NCBI GenBank assembly: GCA_019347575.1 | Contig: JAHWKY010000019.1 | Location: 1-64,000, forward strand | Source: Actinomycetota bacterium | Lineage (GTDB): Bacteria > Actinomycetota > Nitriliruptoria > Nitriliruptorales > Nitriliruptoraceae | Length of the DNA stretch: 64,000 nt | Direction of reading: 5' to 3' | In this document: positions 16,791-57,261 of the stretch, in pieces | Layout of the letters: the number at the start of each line of letters is the position of its first letter | Position numbering within the stretch: position 1 is the stretch's first letter | Notes under the pieces: generated by a model | The model's database searches: none | Seen by the model: the letters and a program-made list of their open reading frames with translations, nothing else | What the model was told of the DNA's origin: nothing | Translations under genes and position numbers: made by a program

Positions 16791-16815
16791 CCGCTGACTC
16801 CTCACCGCCTGGTTC

Positions 16816-16857
16816 GTGACGTCACTTCGTCGGCTCGAGTGGACGAGGTGACGTCAC
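16816..16857. terminator. Strong hairpin with duplicated GTGACGTCAC
   Basis: Two 16-base arms (16816-16831 and 16842-16857) pair with a single mismatch around a 10-base loop. Each arm carries the 10-base perfect palindrome GTGACGTCAC. It lies directly after the Ltp3-like stop. It could stop transcription or be two operator half-sites for an unknown regulator. Confidence 0.55.
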
Positions 16858-16859
16858 GA

Positions 16860-18017
16860 TCACGGCCTGCCGCTTCCGACCACCCACATGGCGAAGAACT
16901 GGCTGCCGCCTCCGTAGGCGTGGCCCATCGCGGTTCGCGCGCCGTCGACCTGGTGCTCACCGGCCTGGCCCCGCACCTGGAGAGCCGCCTCGAGGAACCG
17001 CAGCATCCCCGACGCGCCGATGGGGTTGGTGGACAGCACTCCCCCGGACATGTCGACCGGGAAGTCGCCGTCGAGCTGGGTCGAGCCATCCTGGACCATC
17101 TTCCAGCCCTCGTGCTCCGGCGCGATCCCGAGGTTCTCGAGCCACATCGGCTCGAACCAGCTGAACGGCACGTACATCTCGGCGCAGTCGATCTGGCTGC
17201 GGGGGTCGCTGATGCCGGCCTCGGCGTAGACCGCCTCGGCGCAGGCGCGCCCTGCCCACGGGTTGACGCGGTCACGGCCGGCACCGATGGTCGGCTCGGA
17301 ACGGACCGCGGTCCCGTGCACCCAGGCGACCCCGTCGCGCCCGTCGGCGACGCGGTCGGAGGCCAGCACTATCGCGGCCGCGCCGTCGGACGAGGGGCAC
17401 GTCTCGGCGTAGCGGATCGGGTCCCACAGCATCGGCGACTCGACGACCGCCTCGTAGGTGACGTCCTCCTGGTGGATGTGCGCGTAGGGGTTCTTCAACG
17501 CGTTCAAGCGGTCCTTGAGCGCGACGAGGTAGCCGGTGTTCTCGGGGGCACCGCTCTTCTTGATGTAGGCGCGCACGATGGGGCTGAAGTAGCCGCCGGC
17601 GCCGGCGAGCAGGGGCGTGGAGAACGGGATCGGGACCGACAGCGCCCACATCGCGTTGGATTCGGACTGCTTCTGGAAGGCGACCGTCAGGACGCGGTCG
17701 AACCGCCCGGCGCTCACGTGGTGGGTGGCGACGACCGCGGTCGAACCTCCGACCGACCCGGCCGTGTGTACCCGCAGCATCGGCTTGCCGGTCGCACCCA
17801 GGGCGTCGGCGAGCATGAGCTCGGGCATCATCACGCCCTCGAACATGTCCGGCGCCTTGCCGATCACGACGGCGTCGATGTCACCCCAGTCCATCTCGGC
17901 ATCGGCGAGCGCGCGCTCGGCGGCCTCCCGGACGAGACCGGGGATGGAGACGTCCTTGCGTTCGGCCTTGTGGTGCGTCTGCCCGCACCCGACGACCGCG
18001 ACCCTTCGCGCTCCCAT
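16860..18017 (-). CDS. ltp3: Thiolase-like steroid side-chain lyase Ltp3
   Basis: A 385-residue thiolase-superfamily protein of the SCP-x/lipid-transfer thiolase group. Long stretches match mycobacterial Ltp3 (Rv3523 as remembered): RVHTAGSVGGSTAVVA, KQSESNAMWALS, WDPIRYAETCPSSDGAAA, YVPFSWFEPMWLENLG and GHAYGGGSQFFAMWVVG. In Rhodococcus, Ltp3 and Ltp4 are needed to degrade C24-branched sterol side chains, probably as aldol-lyases. ATG 18017 overlaps the previous stop (ATGA). It closes the operon headed at 20137. The gene order DUF35-Ltp4-Ltp3 is the same as in mycobacteria. Confidence 0.88.
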   Translation of the reverse strand: MGARRVAVVGCGQTHHKAERKDVSIPGLVREAAERALADAEMDWGDIDAVVIGKAPDMFEGVMMPELMLADALGATGKPMLRVHTAGSVGGSTAVVATHHVSAGRFDRVLTVAFQKQSESNAMWALSVPIPFSTPLLAGAGGYFSPIVRAYIKKSGAPENTGYLVALKDRLNALKNPYAHIHQEDVTYEAVVESPMLWDPIRYAETCPSSDGAAAIVLASDRVADGRDGVAWVHGTAVRSEPTIGAGRDRVNPWAGRACAEAVYAEAGISDPRSQIDCAEMYVPFSWFEPMWLENLGIAPEHEGWKMVQDGSTQLDGDFPVDMSGGVLSTNPIGASGMLRFLEAALQVRGQAGEHQVDGARTAMGHAYGGGSQFFAMWVVGSGRP

Positions 18018-22276: not shown

Positions 22277-23851
22277 TCACACGAGAGCGCTGTCGCGGCC
22301 CTCCCAGTACGGGGCGCGGAGCTCGCGCTTGAGGAGCTTGCCGGTGGCGGTGCGCGGGAGCTCGGCGTGGAAGTCGATGGTGCGTGGGACCTTGTAGCCC
22401 CCGAGGTGGTCGCGGCAGTAGGCGATCAGCTCCTCGGCGAGGTCGTCACTCACCGCGTCGGGATCGACGAGCTGCACGGCAGCCTTAACCTCCTCGCCCC
22501 AGTCATCGTTGGGGACGCCGAACACGGCGCAGTCGAGGACGGCCTCGTGCTGGAGGAGCTGGGACTCGATCTCGGCTGGGTAGATGTTGACGCCGCCGGA
22601 GATGATCATGTCGACCTTACGGTCACGCAGGAACAGGAAGCCGTCCTCGTCGAGCTCACCCACGTCCCCGACGGTGAAGAAGCCCTGCTCGTTCCAGGTC
22701 CGCTTGGTCTTGTCCTCGTCGCCGTGGTACTCGAAGGTGCGGTCGCCCATCTTCATCCAGACCGTGCCGATCTCGCCGGCGGGCAGCTCGTTGCCGTCAT
22801 CGTCGAGGATCTTGATCTCGCTGATCGGCCAGGCGTTGCCGACCGTGCCGGGCTTGCGTAACCAGTCCTCGGGGGTCGCGAGCGTTCCGCCTCCCTCGGT
22901 CGCCGCGTAGTACTCGTAGACCACCGGGCCCCACCACTCGAGCATCGCGTGCTTGGTCGGGACGGGGCACGGGGCGGCGCTGTGGATGACGTGGGTGAGG
23001 CTGGACACGTCGTAGCGCCTGCGCTCGTCCTCCGGCAGCTTCAGCATCCGGTTGAACATCGTCGGCACCATGTGGCTGGTCGTGACGCGATAGCGCTCGA
23101 TGCGCTCGAGCGTCCCCTCCGGGGTCCACTTGTCCATGAGCACGACCGTGTGGCCGAACTGCAACGCGGCGAGGACGAACTGCATAACGGCGGTGTGGTA
23201 CAGCGGGGCGACCGCGAGGTGGACGTGGTCCTCGCCGGGCTGGATGCCGAACAGGTAGTTGAGGAAGCCGGACAGGCTCGCCTGGGTGTCCGCGTCGACC
23301 TCGGGGAGCGGCCGCTCGACCCCCTTCGGACGCCCCGTGGTCCCCGAGGTGTAGTTCATGAACCCGCCCGCCGTGCGGTCGTCGGGCGCCGTGTCGGGGT
23401 GCCCGTCGCGGAACGTGAGCCAGTCCCGGTACCCCTCCAGCGCCCCGACGCTGAAGCGCGCCTCGGCCGGAAGCGTGGGGACGTCGTCGGTGACCGCGGT
23501 GACCGCGTCCTCGAAGCGGCTGTGCGCCACGAACGCCCTCGCCCCGCTGTCCTCGACGATGTAGGCCACCTCGTCGCCGGCGAGGTGCCAGTTGATCGGC
23601 ACGAGGTGCCACCCGGACTGCATGACCGCGAGGATCAACCCGATGGCCTCGGCGCTGTTGGGTAGCAGCATCGCCACGACGTCGCCGCGCTCGAGGCCGA
23701 GCCCGCGGAGGGCGTGGGTGATGCGGTGGACGTTGCCGAGGATCGCGCCCCGCGTGTGCTCGGTGCCGTCCGGCTCGATGACGCAGAGCGCTTCCGGCTC
23801 GAGCTGTGCCAACGCGTAGAACCCCGTCACCGGTTGCTGCTGCTCGCTCAT
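22277..23851 (-). CDS. Fatty/steroid acyl-CoA synthetase (FadD family)
   Basis: A 524-residue AMP-forming ligase. Motifs: MNYTSGTTGRPKGVERP (about 170), YYAATEGGG (about 310), GDVGELDEDGFLFLRDRKVDMIISGGVNIYP (about 400-430, the hinge) and the C-terminal lysine in TATGKLLKREL. The start ATG 23851 has GGGGA six bases upstream. KstR operator 4 is 33 bases upstream, so it belongs to the sterol regulon. It is less similar to FadD19 than the 11657 gene; FadD17 or FadD4-like roles are possible. Substrate may be a shortened side chain or a released fatty acid. Confidence 0.8.
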   Translation of the reverse strand: MSEQQQPVTGFYALAQLEPEALCVIEPDGTEHTRGAILGNVHRITHALRGLGLERGDVVAMLLPNSAEAIGLILAVMQSGWHLVPINWHLAGDEVAYIVEDSGARAFVAHSRFEDAVTAVTDDVPTLPAEARFSVGALEGYRDWLTFRDGHPDTAPDDRTAGGFMNYTSGTTGRPKGVERPLPEVDADTQASLSGFLNYLFGIQPGEDHVHLAVAPLYHTAVMQFVLAALQFGHTVVLMDKWTPEGTLERIERYRVTTSHMVPTMFNRMLKLPEDERRRYDVSSLTHVIHSAAPCPVPTKHAMLEWWGPVVYEYYAATEGGGTLATPEDWLRKPGTVGNAWPISEIKILDDDGNELPAGEIGTVWMKMGDRTFEYHGDEDKTKRTWNEQGFFTVGDVGELDEDGFLFLRDRKVDMIISGGVNIYPAEIESQLLQHEAVLDCAVFGVPNDDWGEEVKAAVQLVDPDAVSDDLAEELIAYCRDHLGGYKVPRTIDFHAELPRTATGKLLKRELRAPYWEGRDSALV

Positions 23852-23883
23852 CGCGCGTCCCCTGCTCGGCGCGGGGCGCATAC

Positions 23884-23897
23884 TAGAACACGTTCCA
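23884..23897. promoter_or_regulatory. KstR-type operator 4 (FadD gene)
   Basis: TAGAACACGTTCCA, preceded by TAC as in operators 2 and 3. It is 33 bases before the FadD start on the minus strand. The downstream end of the AbiEi/DUF559 gene with its palindrome lies 50 bases away. Confidence 0.88.
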
Positions 23898-23921
23898 CTT
23901 CTGCGGGGCGCCGCTGGGGCT

Positions 23922-23957
23922 GAAGAGTTGAGTACGTCAGAACGCACTCAACGCTTC
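23922..23957. repeat. AbiEi/DUF559 cassette 1, left palindrome
   Basis: Two 16-base arms, GAAGAGTTGAGTACGT and ACGCACTCAACGCTTC, pair with two mismatches around CAGA. The stop codon of the AbiEi/DUF559 gene (23948-23950) is inside the right arm. A close copy lies exactly 1100 bases away at 25022-25057, on the other side of the gene. Confidence 0.85.
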
Positions 23958-24937
23958 AGGCTCGCTCGGAGCTCGGGACAGACGCGGCAACGGCGCTGAC
24001 GGCACGGCGTCGCGATCGGCGGCGGCCGCTCGGGATCGGCGCCTGCGTGTGCTGCAGCGAGCTCCTCGGCGATGCTCTCGACGTCGTTCTCGATGCGATC
24101 GCGCGTCAACCAGCTGACGTCCCAACCGCCCTTCTTCGCCTCGACCCACCGCTTCCGGTCGGTGCGGAACGCGCGCCCGCCAGCCCGCGACTGCGGGCTG
24201 TCGCACTCGTAAGCGAACCAGATCGAGGGGAACGGTAGATCGAGGTGGATGACGCGCCCGTCGCCACACAGGAACGGGAACGGCGAGGGGTACGGGGCGT
24301 GACCGAGAGACCTCACGAGCCTACGAGAGTCGAGCTCGAGCACCGAGTCGACGGTATCCGAGATCGTGGCTTCGTAGGCGCGGCGCACAGACCCCGTCCC
24401 GTTCGCGTGGCCGCAGCGCCAGAGCACGTCCTCGAGGGCACCGCGCGGCAGGTGACCTCGCTGCTGGGCGTTGATTGTCCACTCGAGCACGACCGGCCCG
24501 GGGTTCCGGCGGCCGCTGTGCAGCAGCGACCACGCGGGTACCAGCGCACGGATCCCCCGGGCCGACTGCACATCGCGCTGGAGAAGTTTGGCACTGCGGA
24601 TGATGTCGTCCACGCCGACCAGGGTCGGCCGGGCGCGATCGGCCGGGACCGCAACCTGGAGCTGTGATGGTCGAGCGTCGGTGATGCCGTGCAGGTAGAG
24701 CGCGCTCTGCCCCGTGATGGCGCTGCGGTCACCAGCCGTGAGAACGGCCGCCATCGCTTCCGCCTGGAACGAACGCTCGGCGCCGGGCATCAACCAGGAA
24801 CCTCGCTGGAGGCGGGTTCCTCCGTCGGCGGACATGCGGGCGCGGAAAGACCGCAGATCGATCCCCTCGTTGGCGGCTTGGCGGACGTGGACGACCTGGT
24901 GCTGCTGGGCCGCGAGGTCGTAGATGCGCTTGATCAT
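23948..24937 (-). CDS. AbiEi-like/DUF559 orphan protein (cassette 1)
   Basis: A 329-residue protein. Residues about 5-55 look like the AbiEi-type winged helix (LAAQQHQVVHVRQAANEGID, then RLQRGSWLMPGA), and the C-terminal 90 residues look like a DUF559/Vsr-like PD-(D/E)xK nuclease region (VIHLDLPFPSIWFAYECD, then FRTDRKRWVEAKKGGWDVSWLT). The cysteine-rich tail CRQRRCRVC may bind metal. No AbiEii toxin partner is next to it. Such orphan genes are frequent in Actinobacteria and their function is unknown. Palindromes of the same family lie at both ends (23922 and 25022). ATG 24937 is the best start though without a strong SD. Confidence 0.7.
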   Translation of the reverse strand: MIKRIYDLAAQQHQVVHVRQAANEGIDLRSFRARMSADGGTRLQRGSWLMPGAERSFQAEAMAAVLTAGDRSAITGQSALYLHGITDARPSQLQVAVPADRARPTLVGVDDIIRSAKLLQRDVQSARGIRALVPAWSLLHSGRRNPGPVVLEWTINAQQRGHLPRGALEDVLWRCGHANGTGSVRRAYEATISDTVDSVLELDSRRLVRSLGHAPYPSPFPFLCGDGRVIHLDLPFPSIWFAYECDSPQSRAGGRAFRTDRKRWVEAKKGGWDVSWLTRDRIENDVESIAEELAAAHAGADPERPPPIATPCRQRRCRVCPELRASLKR

Positions 24938-25021
24938 GGCGCACACGATGCAACCTCGCGGTTGCCACGTCGAGGCCAGCGTTCGATCCGCTGGGGACAA
25001 CCCGCCGGCACCCGCGACGTT

Positions 25022-25057
25022 GAAGCGTTGGGTACGTCTGTACGCACTCAACTCTTC
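25022..25057. repeat. AbiEi/DUF559 cassette 1, right palindrome
   Basis: Arms GAAGCGTTGGGTACGT and ACGCACTCAACTCTTC pair with three mismatches around CTGT. With one flanking base each side, 33 of 38 bases match the left palindrome in direct orientation and 31 of 38 in inverted orientation. It lies 85 bases upstream of the gene's ATG and 53 bases after the P450 stop. Confidence 0.85.
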
Positions 25058-25109
25058 AGTCTCACCGGGGGCGGGGCGGCCGGGTGGCAGGCGGGGCGGG
25101 GCGCGGGGA

Positions 25110-26321
25110 CTAGGGGGTGAAGCGGACGGGCATGGTCTTGATGCCGTTGATGAAGTTGCTGCGCAGGCGGCGGACCTCGCCGGCGGGCTCGATGTCGGGC
25201 ATGCGGTCGGCGATGACGTCGAACATGATGCGGATCTCGAGCTTCGCCAGGTGCGCCCCGAGGCAGTAGTGGGGACCGCCACCGCCGAAGCTGATGTGGG
25301 GGTTCGGGGCGCGGGCGACGTCGAAGGTGTAGGGGGCCTCGAACACGTCCTCGTCGCGGTTGCCCGACGCGTACCACAGCACGACCTTGTCACCGTCCCG
25401 GATCTCGCGGCCGCGGATGACGTCGTCGCGCATCGCGGTGCGGCGGAACTGGATGACGGGGTGTGCCCAGCGGATGATCTCGTCGGCCGCGGTGTCGAGC
25501 AGCGATGGCTCCGCCTTGAGCTTCTTCCACTCCCCCGGGTGGTCGAACAGCGCCTGCATCCCGTGGCTGATGGCGTTGCGCGTCGTCTCGTTGCCGGCCA
25601 CCGCCAGCAGGATGAAGAAGAGGTCGAACTCCATCTCGCTCAGCCGGTTCCCGTCCACCTCCGCGTTCACGAGGGCGGTCACGATGTCGTCGCGCGGCTC
25701 GGCCTCACGTTGCTGGCGCAGGTTCTCGGCGTACGTGAACATCTCGGCGGCGGCGACACGAGCGTCCTCCGGCGACGTCTGGAACTCGGGGTCGTCGAAG
25801 CCGATGAGGCGGTTGCTGATCTCGAAGATGAAATCGCGTTCCTCGATCGGGGCGCCCATGAGCTCGGCGATGACCTCGAGTGGGAGCTCCGCGGACACCC
25901 AGCGCACGAAGTCGCCCTCACCTTCCTCGAGGGCGCGATCCACGATGGCGTTGGTGTAGTCGCGGATGCGCTCCTCGAGCCGGGCGATCACGCGGGGCGT
26001 GAAGCCGCTGTTGACGATGGACCGCAGGCGGGTGTGTTCCGGAGGGTCCTGGTTGACCATCATGAGCTGCAGCTCCTCGAGCTCGTTGTTCATCGTCGGC
26101 TCGCGGAAGATGGAGGTGCGCTCGAAGCTGGAGTAGATCTCGGGCCTGCGTGAGGCGTAGACGATGTCCTCGTGCTTGGTCAGTGCCCAGAACGGCACGC
26201 CCTCGTAGGGGTCCTCGTGGAGGTGGACGGGGTCCTCTCGCCGGAGCACGTCGAACATCTCGTACGGGAACGCCTCGATGTAGTTGTCGTGGTTGGCGAT
26301 GTCGACTTCGTGTAGGTCCAT
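25110..26321 (-). CDS. Cytochrome P450, steroid C26(27)-monooxygenase (CYP125/CYP142-like)
   Basis: A 403-residue soluble P450. The I-helix AGNETTRN (about 240), ExxR in DEIIRW (about 282), and haem loop FGGGGPHYCLGAHLAK with the Cys ligand (about 350) are present. Segments SGFTPRVIARLEERI, RRTAMRDDVIRGREI and LRSNFINGIK match CYP125, which oxidises the sterol terminal methyl stepwise to the C26 acid. CYP142 is the other candidate. ATG 26321 has GGGAGGAG six bases upstream and lies one base after the previous stop. No ferredoxin or reductase gene is adjacent. It ends the operon starting with chsH2. Confidence 0.86.
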   Translation of the reverse strand: MDLHEVDIANHDNYIEAFPYEMFDVLRREDPVHLHEDPYEGVPFWALTKHEDIVYASRRPEIYSSFERTSIFREPTMNNELEELQLMMVNQDPPEHTRLRSIVNSGFTPRVIARLEERIRDYTNAIVDRALEEGEGDFVRWVSAELPLEVIAELMGAPIEERDFIFEISNRLIGFDDPEFQTSPEDARVAAAEMFTYAENLRQQREAEPRDDIVTALVNAEVDGNRLSEMEFDLFFILLAVAGNETTRNAISHGMQALFDHPGEWKKLKAEPSLLDTAADEIIRWAHPVIQFRRTAMRDDVIRGREIRDGDKVVLWYASGNRDEDVFEAPYTFDVARAPNPHISFGGGGPHYCLGAHLAKLEIRIMFDVIADRMPDIEPAGEVRRLRSNFINGIKTMPVRFTP

Positions 26322-26322
26322 C

Positions 26323-27444
26323 TCAGGCTCCTCCCACGATGCGGTGCACGCGCCCCGCCGCCTCCCGCGCCCCACTGACCAGGTCAGCCATGACCTCGAC
26401 GACGGGGCGCGCTTCGTGCAGCGCCCCGACGATCTGGCCCACGGGGGTCCCCACGAGGTCGTGCCGCCCCGCCGCGCGGAAGCGAGCCAGAGCCTCGGAG
26501 GTCAGCAGGTACTGCAGCGGCATCTGCAGTGGATCAGGGTTGTCGTCCGACTCCCACGCCTCGAGCCAGGAGGTCTTGAGCTGCCGCGCGGGCTTGCCGG
26601 TCAGACCGCGCGAGCGCAGCGTGTCGCGGGAGGTCGCCTCCCACAGCAGTTTCTGCAACCCGTCGGGTAGCGCGCACTCGGTGGTCGACAGCCAGATCGA
26701 GCCGGTCCACACCCCCTGCGCCCCGAGCGCCAACGCCGCCGCGACCTGACGTCCGTCCCCCACGCCGCCCGCGGCGAGCACGGGGGCCGGGGCGACCGCG
26801 TCGACGACCTCCGGCCACAGCACCATCGAGGCGATGTCTCCCGTGTGGCCCCCGGCCTCCCAGCCCTGCGCGACGACGATGTCCACGCCCTGCTCGCGCT
26901 GCTTCAGCGCTTGATCCACCCGCCCGACGAGCGCGGCCACCTTGATGCCGGCCTCGTGGGCGCGGTCCACGACCTCCTTCGAAGGAGGTCCCAGCGCCGA
27001 TGCCAGCAGCGCGGGCGAGTGCCGGAAGGCGACGTCGAGTTGAGGCTCGTGTGCCGCATCCGCCCAGCCGAGAACGCCCCGCACCTCCTCGCCGTCCTCG
27101 GGCAGCGGCGGGACGTCGTGGTCCGCGAGGAAACGCTCGACGAACGCTCGGTGCTCCTCGGGGATCAGCGCAGCGAGCTTGTCCTCGAGATCGTCGAACC
27201 CACCGGCCTCGACCTGCGCGCGGGAGACCGGCATGACGAGGTTGACGCCGTAGGGACGGCCGTCGGCCTCGGCCTCGACCACATCGAGCGCCTCGTCCAG
27301 CTCGGTCGCCTCGCCGCCGTAGCGCACCGCCCCGAGCACCCCGAACCCGCCCGCGCGGCTGATCGCTCCGGCGACCTCGGGCACGTAGCTGAACCCGAAG
27401 ATCGGGTACTCGATACCCAGCTCGCGGGACAGCTCGGTCTGCAT
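26323..27444 (-). CDS. Nitronate monooxygenase-family flavoprotein
   Basis: A 373-residue TIM-barrel FMN enzyme of the nitronate monooxygenase/2-nitropropane dioxygenase family. Features: YPIFGFSYVPEVAGAISRAGG near the start, VAQGWEAGGHTG (about 190, phosphate/flavin binding), and VLAAGGVGDGRQVAAALALGAQGVW (about 220). In sterol degraders a relative (IpdC) acts on ring C/D CoA esters, but this protein's N-terminus differs from IpdC and no other ring genes are nearby, so that role is not claimed. It lies between ltp2 and the P450 in one operon, which suggests a flavin-linked oxidation or reduction of a sterol side-chain intermediate. Confidence 0.72.
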   Translation of the reverse strand: MQTELSRELGIEYPIFGFSYVPEVAGAISRAGGFGVLGAVRYGGEATELDEALDVVEAEADGRPYGVNLVMPVSRAQVEAGGFDDLEDKLAALIPEEHRAFVERFLADHDVPPLPEDGEEVRGVLGWADAAHEPQLDVAFRHSPALLASALGPPSKEVVDRAHEAGIKVAALVGRVDQALKQREQGVDIVVAQGWEAGGHTGDIASMVLWPEVVDAVAPAPVLAAGGVGDGRQVAAALALGAQGVWTGSIWLSTTECALPDGLQKLLWEATSRDTLRSRGLTGKPARQLKTSWLEAWESDDNPDPLQMPLQYLLTSEALARFRAAGRHDLVGTPVGQIVGALHEARPVVEVMADLVSGAREAAGRVHRIVGGA

Positions 27445-27493
27445 CGGATCTCCTCCGTGGTCGGTCCGGGTGGTTCGGTCCGTGGTTGGTCTG

Positions 27494-28663
27494 TCAACGA
27501 TCGACGGCGAGGATGAGTCCGCTCGTGGGCACGCCAGTCCCGGCCGTGACCAGAACGTGCTCGACGTCCGCGACCTGGTTGACGGAGGTGCCCCACACCT
27601 GGCGGACCCCCTCCGCCACGCCGTTCATCCCGTGCAGGTACGCCTCGCCGAGCTGGCCTCCGTGCGTGTTCACCGGCAGCCGTCCACCGAGCTCGATGCC
27701 CCCGTCGGCGACGAAATCCTTGGCCTCGCCCCGCCCGCAGAACCCCAGCTCCTCGAGCTGGCGCAGCACCTCCGGGGTGAAGTGGTCGTAGATCATCGCC
27801 GTCTGGATATCGGCTGGCTCGATGCCGGCCTGACGCCACAGCTGCTCGCCGACCAGGTGCATCTCCGGCAGCCTCGTGATGTCGCCGTGGTAGTAGCTGG
27901 TCATCTGCTGCTGGTGGTCGGCCGACCCCTGGGCGGCCGCGGCGACGACGGCCGGAGGCCGGCGCAACGATCGCGCACGCTCGAGCGAGGTAACGACGAT
28001 CGCCTGTGCCCCGTCGGTCTCCTGGCAGCAGTCGAGCAGGCGCAACGGTTCGACGACCCAGCGCGAGGCTTGGTGCTCGTCGAGGGTGATGGGGCGCTCG
28101 AAGAAGTAGGCCGCCGGGTTGGTGGCGGCGTGCTTGCGCATCGCCACGGCCACGCGGCCGAGATCCTGGCTCGTGGTACCGGAGTCGTGGAGGTAGCGCT
28201 GCGCCGCCATCGCGACCCAGGCGGCAGGGGTCATGAACCCGAAGGGCGTGTACCAGCCCCACTCGGCCTCCTCGGCGTTCTCGGACCACTCGCTGCGGCC
28301 CCGCCCGTAGCGCCGCCCGGAGCGCTCGTTGAAGGCGCGGTAGCACACGACCACCTCGGCCATGCCGGTCGTGACCGCCATGGCGGCCTGCTGGATCGTG
28401 GCGCAGGCCGCCCCGCCGCCGTAGTGGACGCGGCTGAAGTAGGTCAGGGCGCCGATCCCGACCGCCTCGGCGACCTGGATCTCGGGGTTGTCCTCGAGCT
28501 TGTAGGTCACGAGCCCGTCGACCTCGAAGGGCTGCAGGCCCGCGTCCTCGATGGCGGCACGCACCGCCTCGGCCGCGAGCTGAAGCGGCGACCGCCCCGA
28601 GTCCTTCGAGAACTCGGTGGCGCCGATGCCGGCGATCGCGGTGGTCCGGGAGAAGTCGCTCAC
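27494..28663 (-). CDS. ltp2: Steroid side-chain aldolase Ltp2
   Basis: Ltp2 performs the last step of side-chain removal: retro-aldol cleavage of 17-hydroxy-3-oxo-pregnenoyl-carboxyl-CoA to androstenedione and propionyl-CoA. The 389-residue protein matches mycobacterial Ltp2 across its length, including IAGIGATEFSKDSGRS, SRVHYGGGAACATIQQAAMA, YRAFNERSGRRYG, PLRLLDCCQETDGAQAIVVT, LEELGFCGRGEAKDF and GTGVPTSGLILA. Start ATG 28663 overlaps the chsH1 stop (ATGA). Ltp2 is stable only with the DUF35 domain of ChsH2, and both partners are encoded directly upstream. Confidence 0.95.
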   Translation of the reverse strand: MSDFSRTTAIAGIGATEFSKDSGRSPLQLAAEAVRAAIEDAGLQPFEVDGLVTYKLEDNPEIQVAEAVGIGALTYFSRVHYGGGAACATIQQAAMAVTTGMAEVVVCYRAFNERSGRRYGRGRSEWSENAEEAEWGWYTPFGFMTPAAWVAMAAQRYLHDSGTTSQDLGRVAVAMRKHAATNPAAYFFERPITLDEHQASRWVVEPLRLLDCCQETDGAQAIVVTSLERARSLRRPPAVVAAAAQGSADHQQQMTSYYHGDITRLPEMHLVGEQLWRQAGIEPADIQTAMIYDHFTPEVLRQLEELGFCGRGEAKDFVADGGIELGGRLPVNTHGGQLGEAYLHGMNGVAEGVRQVWGTSVNQVADVEHVLVTAGTGVPTSGLILAVDR

Positions 28664-29112
28664 GTCGACGCCTGGGTGCTCGAGAAGCGAAGCGGTAGCA
28701 CAGCCTCAGGCAGCTCGACCCGGACCCTGCCGGTGACGTGGTTGCCGGTGGCGTTGCGCCCCGTGACCGCGACGGTCACCATCGTCCCCTCGATCGCGGT
28801 CACCTCGCCGCTGAACTTCAGCGTGGCGCCGGCGACGTGTGGGACGCCGAGGCGGATCGCTGTGCCCTTGGCGATCGCCTGTGGTCCGGCCCAGTCGGTG
28901 ACGTACTTCACGCACAGACCGTTGGTCGTCAGGATGTTCAGGAAGACGTCCGGCAGACCACTGGCCTGCGCGACCTCGGGGTCGTGGTGGACCGGTTCGA
29001 AGTCGCGGGTCGCGATCGCGGTCGTCACGACGAAGCTGCGCGAGGTCACCAGCTCGACCACGGGGAGCACCGCCCCGACGGTGACGTCATCGATCGTGAG
29101 GGAGTCGCTCAT
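28660..29112 (-). CDS. chsH1: Steroid enoyl-CoA hydratase subunit ChsH1 (MaoC-like)
   Basis: A 150-residue MaoC-like hot-dog subunit that pairs with ChsH2 to hydrate the 17(20)-unsaturated pregnenoyl CoA ester. The hydratase motif DFEPVHHDPEVA (about 36-47), VFLNILTTNGL, and YVTDWAGP agree with mycobacterial ChsH1. Both ends overlap neighbours by four bases (ATGA). The C-terminal tail (PEAVLPLRFSSTQAST) is longer than the mycobacterial protein because a repeat family B copy (28676-28701) is read in frame. Confidence 0.93.
   Translation of the reverse strand: MSDSLTIDDVTVGAVLPVVELVTSRSFVVTTAIATRDFEPVHHDPEVAQASGLPDVFLNILTTNGLCVKYVTDWAGPQAIAKGTAIRLGVPHVAGATLKFSGEVTAIEGTMVTVAVTGRNATGNHVTGRVRVELPEAVLPLRFSSTQAST
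28676..28701. repeat. Repeat family B copy inside the 3' end of chsH1
   Basis: A 26-base copy with ends GTGCT/AGCAC and core AGCGAAGCGGTAGC. On the coding strand it gives VLPLRFSST, part of the extra C-terminal tail of ChsH1. Confidence 0.7.
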
Positions 29113-30086
29113 GCGTCGTCCTCCTGACCCAGCGCGGGCGCGAACAGGGGGAGGATGTAGTCGGGCTCGACCTCGCGCCAGGTCAGCTCCACCGCCATGC
29201 CGATGGTCACCTCGGCGGGGTCGATGTCGACGATCTCGGACACGAACCGCACGCCCTCGTCGAGGTCGATCACCGCGACCGCGAACGGTGGATCGGTGCC
29301 GGGTAGGGGCGGGTGGTGGTGAACGACGTAGCTGTGGATGGTGCCGCGCCCCGCGCTGGTCACCGTGTCCCGCTCGGTGGCGCCACACGCCCCGCACATC
29401 GGTCGGGGCGGGTGGCGCAACGTCCCGCACGCGGCGCAGCGCTGGATGCGCAGCTCGCGCGCTTCGACCCCCTCCCAGAAGAACGCGTTGTCGCGGTTGA
29501 TCGGCGGCCGGGGTCGGCGGGGCGAGCCCGGGTCGGACACGGCGCTCTGGCCCGCCTTCGGCTTCGCGGGTGGCGGGCGGAACTTCAGCAGCCGCATCCG
29601 GGCGACGCCAACGGCTTCCCCGCTGCCGAGCAACTTGTAGTCGTGCCTGACCGTGACGAAGTAGCCCTCCCCGAGCGCTGTCGTCTTGACGTCCGACAGC
29701 GACTCGATCGAGATCTCCTCGTAGAGGTGGTCGCCAGGCCGGACCTCGCGCAGGTAGTCGTGCTCGTAGTCCGTCGCGACCACGGCGGTGTACCCGGCGT
29801 CGTCGAGCACCCCGAAGACGCGGTCGCGGGCACTGCCGCTCTTGCCGGCGGAGATCTCGAGCGTCCAGCTGCCGAGCATCGCGGGCGGGGCGACGACGCC
29901 TCCGTGGCGCGACGCCGCGGCGACCTCGGGATCGGTGTACACCGGGTTGGTCTCCTCGAAAGCCCGCACCCAGTGCACGACCATCGCCTCGTTGACGGGA
30001 TACGGGGCGACCTTCTCGTCGTCCGGGGGCTGTCCCACGTGCGCACGCGCCGCCTCGATGGCGGCGATCGTCGCGTCGTCGGTCAC
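29109..30086 (-). CDS. chsH2: ChsH2: MaoC-like hydratase fused to DUF35
   Basis: A 325-residue two-domain protein. Residues about 1-175 are a MaoC-like domain (VNEAMVVHWVRAFEETNPVY, YEHDYLREVRPGDHLYEEI); residues about 195-325 are DUF35 with a zinc ribbon of two CxxC pairs (CAACGTLRHPPRPMCGACG) and an OB fold. The first domain forms the heteromeric hydratase with ChsH1; the DUF35 domain holds and activates Ltp2. GTG 30086 was chosen for the AGG six bases upstream and the family start. It heads the operon chsH2-chsH1-ltp2-NMO-P450, which has the order of the mycobacterial igr operon minus its two fadE genes. KstR operator 5 is 96 bases upstream. Confidence 0.94.
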   Translation of the reverse strand: MTDDATIAAIEAARAHVGQPPDDEKVAPYPVNEAMVVHWVRAFEETNPVYTDPEVAAASRHGGVVAPPAMLGSWTLEISAGKSGSARDRVFGVLDDAGYTAVVATDYEHDYLREVRPGDHLYEEISIESLSDVKTTALGEGYFVTVRHDYKLLGSGEAVGVARMRLLKFRPPPAKPKAGQSAVSDPGSPRRPRPPINRDNAFFWEGVEARELRIQRCAACGTLRHPPRPMCGACGATERDTVTSAGRGTIHSYVVHHHPPLPGTDPPFAVAVIDLDEGVRFVSEIVDIDPAEVTIGMAVELTWREVEPDYILPLFAPALGQEDDA

Positions 30087-30181
30087 GCGGGCACCTCGCC
30101 TCGAGCTCGGACCTTCACCAGGATGGTGCCCAACTGCGGCGCACATCCGCCGACCACATCGAGCACCACCCTCCGCAGAAC

Positions 30182-31410
<1,229 letters not shown>

Positions 31411-31411
<1 letters not shown>

Positions 31412-32226
31412 TGGGTCGAGGGGAGCTGCCGGGGAACGACGATCTCATCGTCGAGCAGGATGGCCACGTCGTCACGGTCACGATGAACCGCCCCGAGGCG
31501 AAGAACGCGTGGTCCGGGCTGATGATCGAGGGCATGGCCGCGGCGTGGGAGTGGATCGACGCCGAGCCGTCGGTACGGGTCGCGATCCTCACTGGGGCGG
31601 GCGGCACGTTCTGCGCGGGCGCCGACCTCAAGGACATGAGCTCGCGCCGCTCCGAGGGCGACGACGGCTTCGCGGACCGCGTGAAGGGCGCCAACGTGGC
31701 GTTCACCGCGATGCTACGCAACCACTCGCTCAGCAAGCCGCTGATCGCCGCGGTCGAGGGCTACGCCGTCGCCGGCGGTACCGAGATCCTGCAGGCCACC
31801 GACATCCGCATCGCCGGCGAGTCCGCGCGGTTCGGGCTCGCCGAGGTGCAGCGCGCGCTGTTCCCGATCGGCGGTTCGACCGTGCGGCTGCAGCGTCAGG
31901 TGCCGTTCACCAAGGCGATGGAGATCCTCCTCACCGGCGAGCAGATCGACGCGGCCGAGGCGCTTCGGATCGGCCTGGTCGGCCGCGTCGTCCCCGACGG
32001 CGAGGCGTTGAACGAGGCGAGACGGATCGCCAACCGCATCGCCCGCAACGGCCCGCTCGCGGTGCAGGCGATCAAGCGCTCGGCGCGGGAGACGGCGAGC
32101 CTGCCCGAGGAGGAGGCGCTGAAGCTCGAGCTCGAGATCGGGATGCGGGTGTTCGCGTCGGAGGACGCGAAGGAGGGTCCGCGCGCGTTCGCGGAGAAGC
32201 GTGACCCGAGGTTCCAAGGGAAGTAG
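31411..32226 (+). CDS. echA19: Steroid enoyl-CoA hydratase EchA19
   Basis: A 271-residue crotonase. EchA19 hydrates the first enoyl-CoA of the C8 sterol side chain in mycobacteria. The oxyanion hole motif AGADLKDM and the catalytic Glu region AGGTEILQATD followed by FGLAEVQRALFPIGGS are present. The end, VFASEDAKEGPRAFAEKRDP, is typical of EchA19. It starts at ATG 31411 overlapping the FadA5 stop by one base, so the two are translationally coupled. Confidence 0.9.
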
Positions 32227-32265
32227 CCGGGGCGCGTGCCCCTCAGGTCAGCGGGAGGAGAAGCC

Positions 32266-33036
32266 ATGGCGTTCCGTGGCAAGGTCGCACTCGTCACCGG
32301 AGGCGGCAGCGGCATGGGTCAGCTCGCCGCGACGCGTCTCGCGCAACGGGGCGCGAAGGTCGCCGCGCTGGACGTGAACGAGGAGGGGTTGGCCGCGACG
32401 GCCGGGGCGCACGAGAACGTCACGACGTTCGTGTGCGATGTCAGCGACGCCGGACGCGTCCAGCAGGTCGTCAAGCAGGTCGAGACCGACCTCGGCCCGA
32501 TCGACCGCACGATGGCCGCCGCCGCGATCATGCCCACCGGCCTGCTCGCTGAGATGGACACCGAGGTCATCCGCAAGATCGTCGAGGTCGACTACCTCGG
32601 CGTCGTCAACACCGTCAAGGCGACGCTGCCGGGGATGCTCGAGCGGCGGCGGGGCGACATGGTGATCTTCGCCTCGTTGATGGGCTACCTCCCGACGATG
32701 TACCTCGGGGCGTACTGCGCGGCGAAGGCGGCGGTGGTCGCGTTCGCCGAGATCCTCTACCACGAGAACCGCGACAGCGGCCTCCGCTTCGCGCTCGTCG
32801 CCCCGCCCAACGTCGAGACCCCCCTGCTGAACCAGGTCACCTCGCCGATGAAGACGCTGCACGACAAGCGCACCCCCGACCCGCTCACGCCGGCCGAGGT
32901 GATCGACGCCATCGAGGCCAGCCTCGAGCGGGGCGCGTTCCTCTGCGCGCCGGGCGCCGCCAGGGCCTCGATCAAGGCGCGGCGGTTCATCCCGAACGTC
33001 ATCTGGAAGAACATGCACAAGATCGAGGGCTTCTGA
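32266..33036 (+). CDS. SDR with altered NNAG motif
   Basis: A 256-residue short-chain dehydrogenase, third gene of the fadA5 operon, starting at ATG 32266 with GGGAGGAG six bases upstream. It has the cofactor loop TGGGSGMG (about 11-18), Asp for NAD selectivity (ALDVNEEG) and YxxxK (YCAAK, about 152). The structural NNAG motif after the fourth strand is AAAAIM, which is unusual for an active SDR; the Ser of the triad may be in FASLMG. It could still be active, since some SDRs vary here. A hydroxyacyl-CoA or steroid dehydrogenase role is inferred from its operon. Confidence 0.75.
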   Translation: MAFRGKVALVTGGGSGMGQLAATRLAQRGAKVAALDVNEEGLAATAGAHENVTTFVCDVSDAGRVQQVVKQVETDLGPIDRTMAAAAIMPTGLLAEMDTEVIRKIVEVDYLGVVNTVKATLPGMLERRRGDMVIFASLMGYLPTMYLGAYCAAKAAVVAFAEILYHENRDSGLRFALVAPPNVETPLLNQVTSPMKTLHDKRTPDPLTPAEVIDAIEASLERGAFLCAPGAARASIKARRFIPNVIWKNMHKIEGF

Positions 33037-33040
33037 GCCC

Positions 33041-33086
33041 ATCGATGTTGGTACATCGCACCGTGTGGGGTTGCGATGTACCCACA
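33041..33086. repeat. AbiEi/DUF559 cassette 2, left palindrome
   Basis: GGTACATCGCA (33050-33060) and TGCGATGTACC (33072-33082) form an 11-bp perfect inverted repeat. The outer edge ATCGATGT is kept on the left only. About 40 of 49 bases match the reverse complement of the right palindrome at 33985-34037. Confidence 0.8.
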
Positions 33087-33995
33087 CAGGTCGCGTGCGG
33101 CCCGCCATCCACCGGCTGGCGGTCGCTGGACAGGCCCTTCATCCACAGGCTCCGTGCACCCCGGTGCACGAGGGCCGGGATCGGCGTGCGATGGCCACGC
33201 GTCTTCGCCTTCGCGAACGTCCCCGACTCGAGGGACCTGCAGGTCCGGGCGGCGGCGCTCGCAGCCGGCCCTCAGGCTGCCCTGTCGCACGTCACGGCGG
33301 CGGAGGTGCTCGAGCTACGCCACCTGCCTACGGGTCTCGCGGAGAGCCGCATCGACATCGCGGTGCCGCGCGGGCACAGCCCGACGGTCCGGGGTGTGAT
33401 CGTGCACCACCCGATCCTGCTGCCCTACGACCACATCATCGAGGAGGAGGACCTGCGGTACACGAACGTCCCGCGGACGCTGCTCGACCTGGCGAACGTC
33501 GTCTGGGAGCGGTCCTACCGTCGCATCCTCGACGCCGCCCTGTCCGAGGAGCGCACCTCGTGCGACGAACTCAACGCGATGATCGCGTTCCTGGGCTCGT
33601 TCCCCGGCGTCCGCCTGGCGCGGAGGACGGTCGAGGCGTTCGATCCCCGGATGGTCGGCTCGCGCTCGGACCTCGAGCGCACCTTCTTCCGGGGGCTCCA
33701 GGCAGCCGGGGTGGACCTCCCCACCGCCAACGTCGAGATCCGGGACGCCGACGGCCGGCAACGGTTCCTCGACTTCGCCTACATCCCGGAGCGGCAGCCG
33801 ATCGAGATCGACTCCGACCGCTACCACGCGTCGACCCTGGCACGAGCGGAGGACGGGGCGCGACAGAACGCGATCGCCCTCACCGGGGAGTGGCGCGCCC
33901 CGCTGCGCTTCGATGAACACGACGTCCGCGAGAGGATGCCCCGGGTGGCGGAAGAGGTGCGGCGGACCCTGACGCGGATCCGCGCATCGATGTAG
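33045..33995 (+). CDS. DUF559/AbiEi-like orphan protein (cassette 2)
   Basis: A 316-residue open frame. The part from about residue 50 resembles AbiEi-DUF559 proteins: WPRVFAFANVPDSRDLQVR, then SHVTAAEVLELRHLP (like TGQSALYLHGI in cassette 1), IDIAVPRGHSP and a C-terminal DUF559 nuclease-like region (RFLDFAYIPERQPIEIDSDR, then RAEDGARQNAIALTGEWRAPLRF). The winged helix expected before residue 50 is missing or degenerate, and the first ATG (33045) is inside the left palindrome without a ribosome binding site; GTG 33186 is another possible start. The TAG stop is inside the right palindrome, as in cassette 1. Function unknown. Confidence 0.62.
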   Translation: MLVHRTVWGCDVPTQVACGPPSTGWRSLDRPFIHRLRAPRCTRAGIGVRWPRVFAFANVPDSRDLQVRAAALAAGPQAALSHVTAAEVLELRHLPTGLAESRIDIAVPRGHSPTVRGVIVHHPILLPYDHIIEEEDLRYTNVPRTLLDLANVVWERSYRRILDAALSEERTSCDELNAMIAFLGSFPGVRLARRTVEAFDPRMVGSRSDLERTFFRGLQAAGVDLPTANVEIRDADGRQRFLDFAYIPERQPIEIDSDRYHASTLARAEDGARQNAIALTGEWRAPLRFDEHDVRERMPRVAEEVRRTLTRIRASM

Positions 33996-34037
33996 CTACA
34001 TCGCATCCTCGGAGGGTGCGTTGTACCTACATCGATG
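33985..34037. repeat. AbiEi/DUF559 cassette 2, right palindrome
   Basis: Arms of 24 bases around a 5-base loop (TCGGA) with three mismatches; the outer 11 bases CATCGATGTAG and CTACATCGATG are perfect. The gene's TAG stop is in the left arm. The convergent membrane protein gene stops three bases after the palindrome. Confidence 0.85.
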
Positions 34038-34039
34038 GG

Positions 34040-34642
34040 TCAGGAGAGGGGCTCGCAGATCTTGCAGGGCTGCATGCCGGGTTCGGCGTCGGGGTCGACC
34101 TCGCGGAGGTCGTCGCGGCCCACGACCACGGAGCAGTCGGGGAGGTGGAACATCGTCCCGGTGGGGGTGGCGACCAGCAACGCGGGCAGGCCCGCCGAGC
34201 TCCGGGCGACCGCATCGACGGCACGCCCCGGCGTCGCCGCGAGATCGGCGCGCAGCACGTCGATGAGTTCGCGCACCTTGTCGGCCTCGTCGCGCGACTG
34301 CTCCGCGAGCCGTGCCAGCCACGACCCGACGTAGAGCAACCCGCCCATGAGCATCAGGCCCATGCCGAGCAGCCCACCCGAGATCAGGTACGGGACCTGC
34401 TCGAACAAGAACGGGGTGTTCGCCGCCCCGAGCCAGCCGAGGATGATCGCCCCGAGCCCCGCCGGGAGCATGAGCAGCGCGAGGAACGCCAGGATGCGGT
34501 CGAGGGTCCAGTACCGGATGCGTCGATCGCGCTTGGCGATGCCCGCCATGCGCGCGAACGTCGCGAGCCGCCCCGACCGCTGCTCGTCGTCGGACGCCCC
34601 GCCGGTGGCGGGCTCGTCGATGGGTACGTCCGCGGTCGCCAT
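34040..34642 (-). CDS. Two-TM membrane protein with C-terminal Cys/His motif
   Basis: A 200-residue protein. ATG 34642 has GGAG six bases upstream, while the ATG at 34660 has none. Two hydrophobic helices (about residues 48-70 and 78-102) are followed by a helical charged stretch and a small C-terminal motif FHLPDCSVV ... PCKIC, whose His and three Cys resemble the small zinc-binding tails (H-x3-C ... C-x2-C) found on other actinobacterial membrane proteins. It is the last gene of the ABC transporter operon, ten bases after the secreted protein gene. Function unknown; an accessory envelope component for the transporter is inferred. Confidence 0.65.
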   Translation of the reverse strand: MATADVPIDEPATGGASDDEQRSGRLATFARMAGIAKRDRRIRYWTLDRILAFLALLMLPAGLGAIILGWLGAANTPFLFEQVPYLISGGLLGMGLMLMGGLLYVGSWLARLAEQSRDEADKVRELIDVLRADLAATPGRAVDAVARSSAGLPALLVATPTGTMFHLPDCSVVVGRDDLREVDPDAEPGMQPCKICEPLS

Positions 34643-36821: not shown

Positions 36822-36943
36822 CCTCCCCCCTGGAGGGGGGAGGGGCCGGCGTTGCCGGCCTGGGGGGTGAGGTTCGATCGGTAATTGCCTCCCCCCTGGA
36901 GGGGGGAGGTGCCGGCGTTGCCGGCCTGGGGGGTGAGGTTCGA
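36822..36943. repeat. Repeat family A, two tandem copies before livF
   Basis: Copies at 36822-36877 and 36888-36943 are 56 bases each and nearly identical, joined by ten bases (TCGGTAATTG). Each has the C6/G6 palindrome and the GCCGGCGTTGCCGGC core. The inner copy ends one base before the livF ATG, providing its GGGGGGAGG ribosome binding site. They fill the whole livG-livF gap. Confidence 0.9.
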
Positions 36944-36947
36944 ACCG

Positions 36948-45411: not shown

Positions 45412-45478
45412 AGGTTGAACCCCTGAACCGAAGGTTGAACCCCTGAACCGGTCGATCGGGTTCACTGGTTCGACCTTC
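45412..45478. terminator. 20-bp-stem hairpin preceded by a direct repeat
   Basis: AGGTTGAACCCCTGAACCG occurs twice (45412-45430 and 45432-45450). The second copy is the left arm of a hairpin, 45430-45449 pairing with 45459-45478 (three mismatches) and a 9-base loop. It lies between convergent genes, suggesting a bidirectional terminator. A hairpin with the same design is at 59422-59470. Confidence 0.65.
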
Positions 45479-49175: not shown

Positions 49176-49284
49176 CTCGCGACCTCCGGAGGTGGGTGTG
49201 AGGCGCCGAGGCTACCGGTTCCTGACGGGGCGTCAGGAACCGCGGGGCGCTCCGACGAACGTCCCTTGCGCTCCACCCTCACGC

Positions 49285-49330
49285 AACTTGAATGGTTGGG
49301 GGCATCCAGATGCACCCGAGTAGTCAAGTT
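49285..49330. promoter_or_regulatory. Nested palindromes between SDR and MBL genes
   Basis: AACTTGA (49285-49291) and TCAAGTT (49324-49330) enclose a second inverted repeat, GGGGGCATC-CA-GATGCACCC. The site lies between two divergent genes, 18 bases before the MBL start. It looks like an operator for an unknown regulator. Confidence 0.4.
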
Positions 49331-49348
49331 CCGTCGGGAGGAGCCACC

Positions 49349-57142: not shown

Positions 57143-57261
57143 CTTCTCCTCCCAGCGGGGGTTACGGCCCCCTGAGCGAGGCTGCGTGGAGGATGTGTCT
57201 CACAGGTGAGCCAGATGCTCCACGGAGCGGGGTCCGAGGGTACTCCTGGGCCTCCAGCGCT

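Follow-up and report, generated by a model that had tools for sequence, protein, structure and literature searches.

Predicted AbiEi-nuclease genes of Actinomycetota lie between matched palindromes that have REP-like dispersed copies

A family of genes in Actinomycetota, encoding an AbiEi-type DNA-binding part joined to a predicted nuclease fold, is linked to palindromic DNA, with a pair of matched palindromes placed around the gene. The link between gene and palindromes is seen directly, and from it we infer binding and cleavage of the palindromes by the encoded protein and a route by which they are copied. Gene and palindromes together probably form a REP/RAYT-like element, whose enzyme would be an AbiEi-nuclease, whose palindromes would be double AbiEi-type operators, and which would be mobile.

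Gene 1 lies in the 64,000-bp window, by which we mean the whole stretch of DNA that was analysed. The first-pass annotation had described this gene as enclosed by two related palindromes spaced 1100 bp from each other, the left one containing the gene's stop codon, and all of this is present as described:

23922 to 23957, strand not applicable: left palindrome of gene 1, overlapping the gene-1 3′ end and stop codon; 33/38 identical to the right copy; DNA fold z −5.85
23948 to 24937, minus strand: gene 1, 329 aa; predicted AbiEi-like DNA-binding part (residues 1–192) and Vsr/DUF559-type nuclease fold (195–302)
25022 to 25057, strand not applicable: right palindrome of gene 1, beginning 85 bp upstream of the gene-1 start codon (operator position)

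The identity of 33/38 was obtained between positions 23921–23958 and 25021–25058, the 1100 bp are counted from start to start, and the stop codon is a TGA on the minus strand (23948–23950). At palindrome pairs the left/right match reaches about 50 bp, longer than the 36 bp first called, and the relative orientation of the two copies differs among elements. Single-strand folding energies for gene 1 were −17.1 kcal/mol (left) and −9.9 kcal/mol (right), equalled by 0/200 and 2/200 shuffles respectively. No known structured RNA was matched in Rfam up to E 0.1 across 23800–34200. The neighbours of gene 1 are an AMP-binding enzyme and a cytochrome P450, and an adjoining AbiEii nucleotidyltransferase toxin is absent.

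A second pair, reported earlier at 33041–34037, is also real; its copies are 78–82% alike and their sequence is unrelated to that of the gene-1 pair:

33038 to 33086, strand not applicable: left palindrome of gene 2, an independent element with a palindrome unrelated to that of gene 1
33045 to 33995, plus strand: gene 2, same protein family as gene 1; coding-potential start at about 33186
33982 to 34039, strand not applicable: right palindrome of gene 2, overlapping the gene-2 stop codon

The first ATG of gene 2, at 33045, falls within its left palindrome. Three lone palindromes in the window belong to elements elsewhere in the genome:

45430 to 45478, strand not applicable: dispersed palindrome of the family flanking a gene-1 paralogue at G000:C1:141227-142009
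57181 to 57228, strand not applicable: dispersed palindrome of the family flanking a nuclease gene on G000:C46
59417 to 59475, strand not applicable: dispersed palindrome of the same family as 45430–45478, directly behind a gene 3′ end

Another dispersed palindrome family, of the GAACTTG..ATGGTTGGGGGCA type, occurs at 49277–49338 of the window and at G000:C19:64719-64770, C1:271576 and C1:283770. No matching nuclease gene was found for it in the DNA read; the gene is perhaps elsewhere or lost. The window also holds an isolated strong hairpin, TCGTGACGTCAC..GTGACGTCACGA, at 16807–16866 and, near an ORF start, a direct repeat at 36826–36944 (period 66 bp, 37/38 bases identical) that is apparently unrelated to the palindromes.

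The gene-1 product is predicted to be an AbiEi-type DNA-binding part fused to a nuclease fold, fold likeness itself being no proof of activity. An AlphaFold model (mean pLDDT 86.9) was compared by fold with PDB structures. Residues 1–192 of the model match the AbiEi antitoxin 6y8q (Z 13.0 over 182 residues) and also 1zel (Z 9.3), while residues ~195–302 match I-Bth0305I (3r3p, Z 10.3), 3hrl (Z 10.1) and Vsr (1cw0, Z 9.7). We take 3hrl to be a DUF559-type protein; its PDB title reads just putative endonuclease-like protein. PADLOC identified gene 1 as AbiEi (E 4e-21). In Pfam, gene 1 matched AbiEi_1 and had no DUF559 match, and other members matched MTES_1575 or DUF559 weakly. Residues D233, E244 and D246 are invariant across 12 sequences.

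A nuclease domain closest to I-Bth0305I, DUF559 and Vsr, with invariant acidic residues, would suit a classical homing endonuclease gene. Such an enzyme cuts a gene-free site into which its gene is then copied; the palindromes would be remnants of the target site and their dispersal would be incidental. The recurrence of several elements at the same site across genera, described below, would also fit. However, homing leaves unexplained both the matched two-sided palindromes, with a different sequence for each element, and the dispersed and tandem palindromes that lack a gene, and we consider it improbable.

When the same genome was searched with the proteins of genes 1 and 2 and afterwards with a profile, about 10 further family members came up, some of them fragments. 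The complete members (L006, L007, L008, L009, L010 and L011) each have mutually matched flanks, which are unlike the palindromes of most other elements; at L006 there are five palindrome copies, split two and three between the sides. Two paralogues show damage, L005 having lost its N-terminus and retained a single palindrome, and L013 carrying a frameshift. As a control, flank pairs were scored for 379 predicted genes of 600–1500 bp in 840 kb of DNA from this genome. A score above the threshold of 23.4 was reached by 9/379 genes, seven of which are AbiEi-nuclease genes, so that the pairing goes beyond chance. The two exceptions, among some 370 non-family genes, are a gatB-like gene between two repeat copies and a nitrilase-like gene (G000:C12:129723-130821; L053:9723-10821) bracketed by two L008-family palindromes; palindromes can thus enclose an unrelated gene.

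Matched flanks are also common among relatives. A profile of eight proteins has matches in 29/35 Nitriliruptoraceae (Actinomycetota) genomes, and 53 of the 76 genes in this family of bacteria have matched flanks, with the threshold set at the 99th percentile of 903 mismatched flank pairings. A survey of other actinobacterial genes, which had been suggested earlier, gave matched flanks for 39/64 genes, from 29 genomes; this phylum sample comprised 149 genomes, 45 of them carrying members, and the threshold was again the 99th percentile of mismatched flanks. Roughly one third of family members are without matched flanks at the threshold used. The flank score counts any repeated flank, palindromic or not, and at L089 it was a 40-bp direct repeat that was scored; most matched flank segments are palindromic, some weakly. 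The palindromes have a median length of 48 bp and differ in sequence from gene to gene; the median distance from the upstream palindrome to the start of protein homology is about 94 bp. Palindrome similarity appears to rise with protein similarity, as a trend only: the random 95th percentile was exceeded by 3/6 pairs with more than 65% protein identity and by 28/735 pairs with less than 35%, the L089 value being spoiled by its 40-bp direct repeat, which outscored its palindrome. For gene 1 itself, the sole close relative in the order is a 57% identical truncated copy in its own genome. There is no orthologue in 36 genomes of the order, and no close relative was confirmed in the named genome collection. 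The gene is therefore not fixed at its position in all relatives, which had been put forward as an argument against a mobile cassette.

Profiles made from the flanking palindromes of each gene found 37 further copies away from the genes in 840 kb of the same genome, nearly all of them intergenic. Of these, 25/37 have a gene 3′ end no more than 30 bp away, compared with 17% for random intergenic placement, a count for which genes were called with a simple codon-usage script and in which copies within one array are not independent. Only 3/37 lie within 30 bp of a gene 5′ end. Convergent spacers are over-represented (12/36 sites), and tandem palindrome arrays repeat every 60–72 bp. In this 840-kb sample L006 and L010 have essentially no dispersed copies, and a single extra copy of the gene-1 palindrome was seen.

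Genome-wide searches for dispersed copies covered three genes, each in a different genome: L007 in its own genome, L090 in G028 and L173 in G050. Using a covariance model, at least 40 distinct copies of the L007 palindrome were found in its own genome, three flanking the gene and at least 37 elsewhere, these counts being lower bounds from 150 candidates scored per genome. Among the 150 candidates scored in each of the family genomes, there was no match in 29/35, and one borderline match in each of four others. In G028 the same model gave at least 13 matches, which are copies of the palindrome flanking that genome's own gene, L090; 12 copies were read there in seven loci, two of which hold three-copy arrays at about 72 bp. 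The complete genome G050 belongs to a different family of the phylum; there, a half-site of the L173 palindrome has 23 matches, compared with none in seven other genomes and 0 for a reversed-pattern control. Of 15 dispersed palindromes in G050, 10 have a gene 3′ end no more than 30 bp away. A glycerophosphodiester phosphodiesterase-like gene in G050 (L296:1517-2399) is bracketed by two dispersed palindromes.

For these three genes, dispersed copies are specific to genomes with the cognate gene and essentially absent from genomes lacking that gene. The first-pass annotation had held that a palindrome scattered at many unrelated gene ends would indicate a common terminator. Several elements do show such scattering, yet their copies go with genomes that carry the matching gene, which points to a REP-like family rather than a common terminator. 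Ordinary transcription terminators at both gene ends, alike by common origin or gene conversion, would place hairpins at gene 3′ ends and could give the excess of convergent spacers. They would not give a repeat found only with its own element and in genomes with the matching gene, a left/right match far exceeding that of other genes, or a copy upstream of the gene start. Neither gene-1 palindrome has a T tract, and there is none after a hairpin anywhere at 23700–25300. Furthermore, the L007 copies keep their sequence, including conserved internal mismatches, without compensatory pairing changes. This implies that they are related by descent or copying and makes selection for folding alone, as expected of an RNA stem, unlikely. 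Taken together, we regard terminators as very improbable.

Some loci carry apparent traces of insertion and decay. At L089:1351-2561 an exact 40-bp direct repeat brackets the palindrome-gene-palindrome unit. This 40-bp repeat terminates in the stop codon of the host gene, which is alpha/beta-hydrolase-like and would therefore have been left whole by the insertion. An exact 18-bp direct repeat lies outside the element at L084, and these are the only two loci with direct repeats outside the palindromes. The direct repeats, together with the truncated and frameshifted gene copies, suggest gain and loss of elements. An empty site with one palindrome left, or a clean junction, was sought in related genomes, as the earlier annotation had proposed, and none was found. 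For gene 1 there is no orthologue in 36 genomes of the order and its P450 neighbour is not syntenic; for L090 and for a dispersed array of G028, the flanking genes exist elsewhere but never side by side. L090 sits behind a glnA-like gene that is without the element in four other genomes, but these provide no usable junction. Targeting of tRNA genes was rejected, as no tRNA was present in 58 element loci.

Several elements hold the same place across genera, with proteins that are 51–66% identical, so that they either move rarely or are kept for a function. The proposal of a single-gene cassette thus stands in part, in that the direct repeats at two loci and the damaged copies speak for it, while the fixed places across genera and the lack of a clean empty site speak against it. 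The palindromes of such same-site elements are mostly unrelated between genera yet matched within a locus, the match being weak in a few loci, which suggests that the two copies of a pair change in concert. Such behaviour could come from active copying, or from a conserved function whose sites change fast.

An alternative explanation is a stably inherited, autoregulated nuclease, for which the palindromes would be regulatory operators or borders, and the dispersed copies a regulon or chromosome-organisation sites instead of products of mobility. AbiEi proteins do autoregulate through inverted repeats (PMC7319586), and the median position of the upstream palindrome, some 94 bp ahead of the homology, and the orthologous sites shared across genera are what this explanation would predict. 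It accounts poorly for dispersed copies that lie behind genes and not before them, for same-site palindromes that are largely replaced between genera, and for tandem arrays, damaged gene copies and direct repeats that resemble element turnover. We judge it rather unlikely. 

The suggestion in the first-pass annotation that a nuclease-like protein might act on its own palindromes, or be regulated through them, agrees with the predicted AbiEi-nuclease fold, the matched pairs that recur in most relatives examined and the known binding of AbiEi to inverted repeats of such a size (PMC7319586).

REP/RAYT-like spreading is favoured because of the nuclease domain, the gene-specific dispersal, the 60–72 bp arrays, the damaged copies and the direct repeats. 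Judging from palindrome size and position and from the protein fold, each palindrome, with two arms of about 18–23 bp round a short centre (~48 bp overall), would be a double AbiEi-type operator, bound by the AbiEi-like part of the protein encoded by the enclosed gene. The C-terminal Vsr/DUF559-type domain would be the cutting part, and the upstream palindrome copy probably doubles as an autoregulatory operator. A cut or nick at or near the palindromes, followed by repair copying, would spread the palindromes, and the whole palindrome-gene-palindrome unit would spread more rarely than the palindromes alone. New copies would land just behind stop codons, where insertion harms little. The chances seem to us about even that these elements make up a previously undescribed, phylum-wide class of mobile, REP-like DNA of Actinomycetota. 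In this class an AbiEi-derived antitoxin fold joined to a Vsr-type nuclease would replace the HUH transposase and copy its palindromic operator to gene 3′ ends, with specificity and palindrome changing together, and fast. If so, the existence of another enzyme family, unrelated to the first and with private palindromes of its own, would show a repeated origin of REP-like repeats. A concrete job would be found for many genes whose present annotation is orphan AbiEi or DUF559, and the protein-palindrome pairs would form a natural set for studying how DNA specificity changes.

Among known systems, REP/RAYT elements share with those described here a single gene between cognate palindromes, dispersed and mostly extragenic copies, tandem clusters, several families per genome and non-complementary parts within the palindrome (PMC2817692, PMC3733652, PMC6006769). 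The enzyme is different: that of RAYT is a Y1 HUH transposase, whereas here it is an AbiEi + Vsr/DUF559-fold protein. RAYT as the enzyme was rejected, as the Y1 transposase domain PF01797 is absent from four family genomes (G000, G028, G015 and G009) while being detected in E. coli and other controls. RAYTs are the enzymes tied to REP palindromes; their classes have been reported missing from Actinobacteridae, except subclass 1.1 (PMC6006769), and CGTC-type REPs have no known dedicated enzyme (PMC3733652). The palindromes here also differ from REPs in being about 48 bp long, and the GTAG/GTGG tetranucleotide at the hairpin foot is absent from the aligned L007 and L008 families and from the gene-1 and G050 copies.

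The AbiE type IV toxin-antitoxin systems (S. agalactiae; M. tuberculosis Rv2827c) resemble gene 1 in the N-terminal fold, and their inverted-repeat operator of about 49 bp upstream of the gene has a likely counterpart in the upstream palindrome. In S. agalactiae, AbiEi binds a pair of 23-bp inverted repeats with a gap of 3 bp, about 49 bp in all, and AbiEi proteins autoregulate through inverted repeats (PMC7319586). The size and position of the upstream palindrome (median 48 bp; promoter region) fit such paired 23-bp repeats. In contrast to AbiE, gene 1 is without an adjoining toxin and its product carries a predicted nuclease domain as well; a further palindrome lies downstream, and palindrome copies are dispersed.

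The EDxHD/Vsr-like homing endonuclease I-Bth0305I shares the nuclease-domain fold, the free-standing gene and the conserved acidic residues, but here matched palindromes are private to each element and palindromes are dispersed without the gene. When orthologous sites across genera were examined as homing sites, occupied ones were found and no clean empty one. Pfam DUF559 and REase_MTES_1575 are related through the C-terminal domain, by weak sequence match in several members and by fold (3hrl). Possible counterparts of the consistent short target-site duplication of insertion sequences are the 40-bp repeat of L089 and the 18-bp repeat of L084 only. In the open-access literature, which was the scope of the search, no paper tied AbiEi or DUF559 to REP repeats, and no link between DUF559 and palindromic repeats was found. 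The palindrome-flanked AbiEi-nuclease system, with its presumed mobilisation, lacks a defining feature of RAYT and one of AbiE, and does not fit homing alone.
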